NCBI RefSeq assembly: GCF_018881795.1
Contig: NZ_JACVPQ010000001.1
Span: 510,718 to 574,717, forward strand
DNA from: Polynucleobacter sp. MWH-Jannik1A5
Lineage (GTDB): Bacteria; Pseudomonadota; Gammaproteobacteria; Burkholderiales; Burkholderiaceae
Length of the DNA: 64,000 bases
Reading direction: 5' to 3'
Shown: positions 28,656-29,947 of the stretch, in pieces
Position numbering within the stretch: the first letter of the stretch is position 1
Layout: every line of letters starts with the position of its first letter
Notes under the pieces: generated by a model
Database searches by the model: none
Seen by the model: the letters and a program-made list of their open reading frames with translations, nothing else
What the model was told of the DNA's origin: nothing
Program-made: the position numbers and the translations under genes

Positions 28656-29105
28656 ATGCAATCCCTCCAAGTCAAAATTCTCGATGAACGTATGCGCGAT
28701 CAGCTGCCAACTTATGGCACACCTGGCAGTGCTGGACTCGATCTGCGCGCTTGTATTGATGAGGCAATCGAAATTGCCCCAGGTCAAACAGTTCTTGTAC
28801 CAACTGGCTTGGCAATATATGTAGAAGATCCAGGCTATGCAGCCTTCATTCTCCCGCGCTCAGGCTTAGGTCATAAACACGGCATCGTACTAGGCAACCT
28901 AGTGGGCCTAATCGATTCTGACTACCAGGGTCAACTGATGGTGAGCACCTGGAATCGCGGATCAACCCCATTCAAATTGGAGCCGATGGAGCGCTTAGCT
29001 CAATTGGTGGTGATGCCGGTACAACAGGTAGAGCTCAAAATAGTTGAAGAGTTCACTGAAAGCAGTCGTGGTGCTGGCAGCTTTGGAAGTACCGGCAGAG
29101 CTTAA
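28656..29105 (+). CDS. dut: Deoxyuridine 5'-triphosphate nucleotidohydrolase
   Basis: A 149-residue trimeric dUTPase that removes dUTP and supplies dUMP. All five motifs can be read: [27 protein letters not shown], the RLAQLVV region, and the C-terminal [10 protein letters not shown] that closes over the active site. It follows coaBC, the conserved proteobacterial pairing. The deaminase gene starts 5 bases after its stop. Confidence 0.97.
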
Positions 29106-29109
29106 TCAC

Positions 29110-29655
29110 ATGAATCGCCGTGGCGCATTAATTTGCTTATGTGGCATTGGCTTAGCTGGCCTCACACGAGGCGCACTAGCAAAGGCCGATCTTTCTTCAA
29201 TTCCAATGAGGAGTCATGAAGTTGCAATGCGTGCCGCGATCGCTATGGCAGCACAAAATCAAGCCTACCCATTTGGGGCCGTCATTACTGATGCGAAGAC
29301 TGGCGCGATACTTGCTAAAGGCGTTAATCAAACTTTTGACAATCCACTGCTCCACGGTGAAATATCTTGCATCAATAATTACATCGCTCAGAACGGTAAT
29401 AAAAATTGGGCGGATATAGTTTTATATACAACCGGAGAGCCTTGCCCTATGTGCATGAGCGCCCTTATCTGGGCAGGTATTGGTGGCGTTGCCTACGGAA
29501 GCTCAGCTGCCACAATTAAAAAATCAGGCATTGATATTTTTACCTTTAGTGCTAAAGACATCAATCAAGGAAACGGCTTTAGCCGGACGCAATTACTGGG
29601 CGGCATTCTTGAGCCAGAATGTAATGCATTATTTCTTAACCGAAAACGGTCTTAA
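29110..29655 (+). CDS. Nucleoside/nucleobase deaminase with twin-arginine-like signal peptide
   Basis: A 181-residue protein of the cytidine/deoxycytidylate deaminase superfamily. Zinc ligands are in HGEISCINNY (His-x-Glu) and PCPMCMSALIW (Cys-x-x-Cys), arranged as in guanine deaminase/TadA relatives. ATG 29110 gives an N-terminus MNRRGALICLCGIGLAGL followed by an Ala-x-Ala-like cleavage region (GALAKADL). That looks like a Tat signal peptide and suggests export, which is unusual for this family. A longer start at 29044 lies inside dut in another frame and is unlikely. It is distinct from the tRNA deaminase TadA, which has no signal. Substrate is unknown. A terminator follows. Confidence 0.8.
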   Translation: MNRRGALICLCGIGLAGLTRGALAKADLSSIPMRSHEVAMRAAIAMAAQNQAYPFGAVITDAKTGAILAKGVNQTFDNPLLHGEISCINNYIAQNGNKNWADIVLYTTGEPCPMCMSALIWAGIGGVAYGSSAATIKKSGIDIFTFSAKDINQGNGFSRTQLLGGILEPECNALFLNRKRS

Positions 29656-29672
29656 GTAAATTAATCAATAAG

Positions 29673-29699
29673 AAAGCCACCCGTAGGTGGCTTTTCTTT
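29673..29699. terminator. Bidirectional terminator between the deaminase gene and the 77-residue ORF
   Basis: AAAGCCACC (29673-29681), a 4-base loop, GGTGGCTTT (29686-29694), then a T-rich tail. It is usable from both converging sides. Confidence 0.86.
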
Positions 29700-29713: not shown

Positions 29714-29947
29714 TTACTTGCGAATATGCGCTTTACGAGCTGCATCTTGCGACATGCCTGCACCAGCGCCTTCACGAGATTCTTTTTCAGCAGTAATTTC
29801 TTTGCGGCGCTCTTTGCATGAGCCTGCAATTTCTTGCAGTGCTTTGCGAGCACGTGCAGCAGAAGCTTTAATGCCTTTACCTTGAAACTTTTCATTTTCA
29901 GCTTTATAAGTTTCAAAAGCTTCTAGTAATTTATCGTGATGAGACAT
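29714..29947 (-). CDS. Small basic helical protein of unknown function (77 aa)
   Basis: A 77-residue protein rich in Ala, Lys, Glu and Arg. The middle reads KGIKASAARARKALQEIAGS and the rest is charged and probably helical or coiled-coil, with one cysteine. There is no signal or membrane segment. I recall similar short proteins in other Burkholderiales, sometimes grouped with histone-H1-like basic proteins, but I cannot confirm this. The start is well supported: AAGGA lies 4 bases before ATG 29947, and a terminator follows the stop. It lies 39 bases downstream of clpA on the same strand, so it may be read through from clpSA. An overlapping Lys-rich frame on the same strand (29665-29916) is a shadow. 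Confidence 0.75.
   Translation of the reverse strand: MSHHDKLLEAFETYKAENEKFQGKGIKASAARARKALQEIAGSCKERRKEITAEKESREGAGAGMSQDAARKAHIRK

Follow-up and report, generated by a model that had tools for sequence, protein, structure and literature searches.

A zinc-dependent deaminase with a predicted Tat-type export signal encoded next to dut in a Polynucleobacter genome

A gene encoding a deaminase with a Tat-type signal (29110..29655, + strand; 181 amino acids plus a stop codon) was identified in the window, the stretch of 64,000 nucleotides of Polynucleobacter sp. MWH-Jannik1A5 that was analysed. The product is probably a zinc deaminase that is exported by Tat, cleaved and left soluble in the periplasm, where it would deaminate a small amino-heterocycle. 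Computational analysis showed the gene and its fold, intact motifs at the active site, a conserved Tat-type signal and Tat genes in the genome. A sequence-only reading of the window had described a twin-arginine-like export signal with a hydrophobic core and an Ala-x-Ala-type site, on a deaminase in which HGE and PCPMC are intact. This description was confirmed, the signal consisting of MNRR, the hydrophobic core and Ala-Leu-Ala.

Locus, reading frame and signal peptide

The deaminase gene begins with an ATG at 29110, 4 bases downstream of the stop codon of dut (28656..29105, + strand), which encodes dUTPase, and its own stop codon ends at 29655. A terminator-like hairpin with a T-rich 3' arm (29670..29698, + strand; -15.2 kcal/mol, z -4.5) is located 3' of the deaminase gene, and dut and the deaminase gene are thus probably co-transcribed in one operon. 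By eye, dut was found upstream of the deaminase gene at 12 of the 14 orthologue loci. The dut gene of one genus member (G033, C1:1205684-1206120) was matched as two slightly overlapping pieces, as if frameshifted. A small gene for a histone H1-like Hc1 protein (29714-29947, - strand; PF07432, 43.6 bits) lies between the deaminase gene and clpA, and the neighbours of the deaminase gene in this genome of 2.0 Mb are accordingly dut, the Hc1-like gene and clpA.

An earlier start is unlikely because the upstream frame is closed 0-3 codons before the ATG in six orthologues. A later start, after the twin arginines, which the sequence-only reading had named as evidence against itself, is also unlikely: position 33, Met in the window protein, holds I, T, R or L in other orthologues, and Met40 is already within helix 1 of the structure model. 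No alternative start codon is conserved among the 14 genus orthologues.

The N-terminus of the product is MNRRGALICLCGIGLAGLTRGALAKADLSS. The signal peptide, predicted by eye and by rule, comprises residues 1-24 (29110..29181, + strand) and contains MNRR, an h-region, R20 in the c-region and A-L-A, followed by K25. Seven residues (M1, R3, R4, A6, L7, C9 and C11) are identical in 14/14 genus orthologues, and residue 5 occurs in seven forms (G, N, S, R, Q, H or K). The codons of Arg3 and Arg4 include CGC, CGT, CGG, CGA and AGA, and Lys is never found at these positions. The second residue after the twin arginines is Ala, whereas the consensus residue is Phe. The h-region is strongly hydrophobic on the Kyte-Doolittle scale (2.48 in the window protein, up to 2.64). 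Arg20 is present in 11/14 orthologues, and A-x-A or V-x-A followed by Lys is present in 12/14, the two copies without a clean site being those of L014 and L016. In eight intact orthologues, pN/pS was 0.30 over residues 2-25 and 0.21 over residues 26-150, values that are rough because synonymous sites are near saturation. The signal and the mature domain are nevertheless both under purifying selection, the signal less so.

The signal was scored with a rough TATFIND-like rule. The rule was passed by all 11 orthologue rows of alignment A1 and by none of the 16 TadA-like homologues of the genus. The window contains 90 stop-to-stop frames that reach 100 codons or more, many of them non-genes; with starts tried only within 60 codons of the first, the deaminase ORF alone passed. 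Two distant relatives (L044 and L048) were passed wrongly, as their RR is inside the catalytic domain. No Tat-signal model was present among the Pfam and NCBIfam matches of 11 orthologues at E up to 10, a search in which HMMER filters may drop short models. The genome of the window contains two TatA/B-type ORFs and tatC, which are adjacent at C1:953784-955225. It also contains a molybdoenzyme-like (molybdenum hydroxylase-like) ORF (L168:979-3192, - strand), the sole PF02738 match in the genome, which has the N-terminus MTTNTNTSRRHFVIG and looks like an ordinary Tat substrate.

Distribution within and beyond Polynucleobacter

An orthologue was found in 14 of 186 Polynucleobacter genomes and was not found in the other 172. 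Orthologues were defined as matches aligned from residue 1 with E at most 7.6e-23, the next matches being TadA-like (E 5e-15 or weaker). Eleven of the 14 copies are intact, including that of Polynucleobacter hirudinilacicola (L035), which shows 78% identity. Two copies from two species are broken: the G031 copy stops at codon 41, and the G034 copy contains Ser in place of Cys115 and has lost its C-terminus. The remaining copy (G153) is a contig-end fragment of 54 codons. No trace of the gene was detected around dut in 17 gene-less genomes of the genus (L132-L148) at E up to 1, the only match near dut being a chance match of 23 residues in L144. In the closest of these genomes (L132, dut 99% identical), the end of the Hc1-like gene is located ~84 bp after the dut stop codon, versus ~612 bp in the genome of the window. 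The orthologues of L014 and L016 sit at two other sites. Presence or absence at one site, together with these two other sites, is consistent with acquisition through recombination or with clean loss on several occasions.

The gene is rare outside the genus. A scan of 398 genomes of the family (E 1e-16) gave 8 matches, seven of the genus and one other with 41% identity and an internal stop. A scan of 398 genomes of the phylum (E 1e-25) gave 2 matches, the window's own and L116, whose N-terminal region contains MDRRRVTSGLLL. Scanning one genome per species with two short patterns gave at least 551 relatives; the best 80 loci were kept, of which 66 were examined. Among these 66 loci, Tat-type N-termini were recognized by the rule in a Nitrosomonadaceae genome (58% identity), Streptomyces, Kitasatospora, Methylocystis, Methylocapsa, another Beijerinckiaceae genome, Acetobacter nitrogenifigens and one Granulicella. 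Others that failed the rule were judged Tat-type by eye in an Obscuribacterales genome, Labrenzia alba and two more alphaproteobacteria (L042, L063, L057 and L058). The N-termini of L039 and L101 look Sec-like. The more distant relatives among the 66 loci are mostly without a Tat-type N-terminus, and no signal was seen in the three upstream frames read for an Alcaligenaceae MAG (L038, 58% identity). Homologs without the extension, which the sequence-only reading had counted as evidence against itself, do exist in L038 and in many more distant relatives, which partly speaks against that reading. The phage records gave no match to the deaminase, and the plasmid records gave 5 matches, each with less than 60% identity and with coverage of the query below 80%.

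A tree was built from 68 mature domains (58 scan loci and 10 genus rows) with the signal excluded. The near-identical L005, the duplicates L035 and L036, and L065, L081, L104, L105, L108 and L109 were left out. The clade of the window protein (17 rows, support 99/95) spans Betaproteobacteria, an alphaproteobacterium and Streptomyces/Kitasatospora, and contains 14 rows with a Tat-type signal, 2 with another export signal and 1 with none. A second clade (12 rows, 100/97), which includes Methylocystis, Methylocapsa and kin, and Acetobacter, contains 11 Tat rows and 1 other. Both belong to a larger clade of 39 rows (100/96) with 27 Tat, 3 other and 9 none, whereas only 1 of the 29 rows outside it is Tat. 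The Tat label, assigned partly by eye, requires 7 changes on the tree versus a shuffled mean of 21.9; with labels assigned by the rule only (24 rows, L044 and L048 dropped), 8 changes are required versus 19.9. Such clustering, to which near-copies in the tree also add, would be expected if the signal were for the most part inherited, with some gains or losses.

The signal also contains a Cys-Leu-Cys sequence (codons 9-11; 29134..29142, + strand). Both cysteines are invariant in 14/14 orthologues, and their codons in the genus include both TGC and TGT. A Cys-x-Cys pair (CLC or CFC) is present within the signal of all 14 genus copies and of the Nitrosomonadaceae copy. In the second clade, the pair precedes the twin arginines in 5 of 11 Tat rows (L052, L053, L055, L056 and L062), and the other six were not flagged for it. 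The pair is placed just after RR in the Betaproteobacteria sampled and just before RR in Methylocystis. In L064 it stands before NRQ, which replaces NRR, and L116 has CRCHC at that place. A signal-less relative with an uncertain start (L076) also has the pair. It is a speculative and improbable idea that these proteins form an undescribed, multi-phylum family of Tat-exported deaminases acting outside the cytoplasm, in which the Cys-x-Cys of the signal helps to load zinc or to proofread the protein before it is exported.

A DUF2165 membrane protein was considered as a partner and rejected; it is a lead only, noticed post hoc. The genome of the window gave no match to it. A DUF2165 gene adjoins the deaminase gene in one Polynucleobacter genome (G117, L014:2131-2628) and at three Beijerinckiaceae loci (L057:2373-2867, L061:2456-2947 and L060:2-229), and in none of the other deaminase loci searched. 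The deaminases of L014 and of the Beijerinckiaceae loci fall in different clades. DUF2165 was found in 5/14 genus genomes with the deaminase versus 8/172 without it (Fisher p 0.001, with kinship and metagenome origin ignored), and in 13/20 genomes with deaminase relatives. By eye, katG-like genes were seen near the deaminase gene in a Polynucleobacter locus (L016:3161-3541) and a Nitrosomonadaceae locus (L037:4425-6539).

Deaminase domain, proposed mechanism and alternatives

The mature deaminase domain comprises residues 25-181 (29182..29652, + strand). PF00383 was matched with 65.8 bits (cut-off 25), and both motifs of the superfamily, H-x-E (H82/E84) and P-C-x-x-C (C112/C115), are present. 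H and E of H82-G83-E84 (29353..29361, + strand) are invariant in 68/68 rows of alignment A2; by the established roles of these residues in the family, H82 is a zinc ligand and E84 the catalytic glutamate. The sequence P111-C112-P113-M114-C115 (29440..29454, + strand) contains the two zinc-ligand cysteines, and its invariance in A2 is partly due to selection because one of the search patterns was EPCPMCM. A structure model from 11 sequences was poor (pLDDT 61) and was replaced by one from 68 mature domains (mean pLDDT 96.5, pTM 0.92), which matched PDB structures with Z of 18.3-21.5 among the 50 rows listed. The matches include TadA (21.5), guanosine deaminase (21.0), yeast cytosine deaminase (19.7), NE0047 guanine deaminase (19.2) and Msd (18.9). 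Judged by the PF00383 profile, the motifs and the modelled fold, the product is a member of the zinc-dependent deaminase superfamily. The fold does not fix the substrate, since guanosine, guanine, cytosine and tRNA-adenosine deaminases are all close to it.

The genome contains two other PF00383 matches, a TadA-like ORF (C1:1410315) and one in a 395-codon frame, which by its size was taken for a putative RibD. The sole match to the purine/uracil permease family (PF00860) in the genome is a SulP-type transporter, and six phosphoribosyltransferase-family matches were found. At the deaminase locus and in the PF00860 permease search of the genome, no neighbour or pathway singled out salvage, detoxification or a substrate. 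The neighbourhoods of other relatives, inspected by eye and partly checked, revealed no common pathway.

In enzymes with the deaminase fold, a zinc-activated water and a glutamate strip the amino group from a small heterocycle. For the window protein we infer actual export, cleavage, catalysis, the kind of substrate and the benefit as follows. Synthesis, zinc loading and folding of the deaminase would all take place in the cytoplasm, and the Tat translocase would then move the folded protein through the inner membrane by means of its MNRR signal. Cleavage after Ala-Leu-Ala would leave a soluble deaminase in the periplasm. There, Glu84 would activate a water molecule bound to the zinc, and this water would take the place of the amino group on the substrate, with release of ammonia. 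The substrate would be a small amino-heterocycle and is probably a nucleoside or a free base. The likeliest benefit would be the conversion of external bases or toxic base analogues, perhaps with a gain of ammonium, before they reach the cytoplasm. Salvage or detoxification by the predicted periplasmic deaminase is plausible.

The sequence-only reading had proposed a Tat-exported nucleobase deaminase suited to an oligotrophic freshwater bacterium. Its export part stood: Tat export is well supported, since the signal is conserved both within the genus and in other phyla, Tat genes are present in the genome and the controls agree. Its freshwater framing is not specific, since Tat-bearing relatives occur in Methylocystis, Methylocapsa, Streptomyces, Kitasatospora and Acetobacter.

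The location of the enzyme could be explained differently. Export by Sec, or an uncleaved signal that anchors the enzyme in the membrane facing the periplasm, is unlikely. It is favoured by an h-region whose hydrophobicity would suit Sec, by the absence of a clean AxA site in L014 and L016 and by the Sec-like look of the relatives L039 and L101. It is opposed by the Arg-Arg pair, invariant and never Lys in 14/14 orthologues, by Arg20 in the c-region of 11/14, and by the established expectation that zinc enzymes of the deaminase fold will fold in the cytoplasm. Tat export makes sense in this respect because the deaminase can acquire zinc and fold before it is moved. Relatives of this deaminase are generally regarded as cytoplasmic, those with solved structures included, and the close relative L038 has no extension; the window protein might then be a cytoplasmic enzyme whose N-terminus is a membrane tether or a remnant. 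This is decidedly improbable, given that the extension is under purifying selection (pN/pS 0.30 in eight orthologues, synonymous sites being near saturation) and that Tat-type signals recur in relatives from other phyla.

Two further alternatives concern function. The product also matches the toxin family MafB19-deam of Pfam (PF14437, 50.0 bits, cut-off 27), but a secreted deaminase toxin directed against other cells is very improbable: PF00383 scores higher (65.8 bits), no second, delivery domain was found in the Pfam results, and the gene lies among dut, a histone-like gene and clpA. In PMC3482391, deaminase toxins are treated as modules of polymorphic toxins and immunity proteins are listed for them, which also speaks against a toxin. 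The same paper mentions Wolbachia deaminase toxins without immunity genes (PMC3482391), and a missing immunity gene would therefore not exclude a toxin. The least probable alternative is a TadA-like tRNA/RNA deaminase that happens to be exported, for although TadA structures are the top fold matches by Z (21.5), the TadA model gave 48.7 bits against a cut-off of 150, and a separate TadA-like gene is present in the genome at C1:1410315.

For the preferred reading, a periplasmic deaminase of small amino-heterocycles, the retention of a predicted Tat signal in a lineage that spans Pseudomonadota, Actinomycetota and a few other groups would imply deamination of bases or nucleosides outside the cytoplasm. 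Extracytoplasmic deamination would be relevant to the recycling of nutrients and to base-analogue resistance. When the reaction takes place outside, products or analogues can be prevented from entering the cell, and ammonium would also be freed. According to PMC4472781, Bifidobacterium with an engineered secreted cytosine deaminase was 100 times less sensitive to 5-fluorocytosine than with the non-secreted form, which indicates that location alone can change the outcome.

Comparison with known deaminases

The best sequence match among solved structures is the guanine deaminase of Bacillus subtilis (1wkq, 1tiy), with E 6.9e-15 (profile 1.5e-18). The zinc motifs are alike, with HAE in the B. subtilis enzyme and HGE in the window protein. 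The match starts at residue 2 of 1tiy, which is thus without an N-terminal extension, unlike the window protein. We take Asp114, which binds guanine, and Glu143 to be the substrate residues of the B. subtilis enzyme. The alignment extends no further than residue 151 of the 181 in the query and stops before Glu143, and Asp114 aligns beside a gap, near the variable Ile143 of the window protein.

The guanosine deaminase of Arabidopsis (7dbf, 7dc9) is the top Foldseek match (E 5.6e-11, TM 0.80; Z 21.0). It is a plant enzyme with ~22% identity, and the domain that was modelled excludes the bacterial signal. Yeast cytosine deaminase (1uaq, 1ox7, 8vll; Z up to 19.7) is eukaryotic and has the LHGEIS and PCxMCxxAxIW blocks in common with the window protein. 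The sequence alignment ends before its C-terminal substrate gate (residues Trp152 and Asp155). NE0047 guanine deaminase (2g84) and Msd of Mycobacterium smegmatis (5xko) have the fold in common (Z 18.5-19.2) at 20-25% identity, and we know of no Tat signal in either.

TadA, the tRNA adenosine deaminase, also has the fold in common (Z up to 21.5), but the window protein is below the TadA equivalog cut-off of NCBIfam (48.7 vs 150 bits), and a Tat-type N-terminus was found in 0/16 TadA-like proteins of the genus. The equivalog cut-off for the anti-phage dCTP deaminase of NCBIfam was likewise missed (27.1 vs 400 bits), and the dCTPase model of PADLOC gave 16.8 bits, covering residues 81-129 only. 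No published Tat-exported deaminase of this kind was found in the literature searched, which left most subscription journals outside its coverage. By its sequence, the window protein is a known kind of enzyme with a new feature, a Tat-type export signal.
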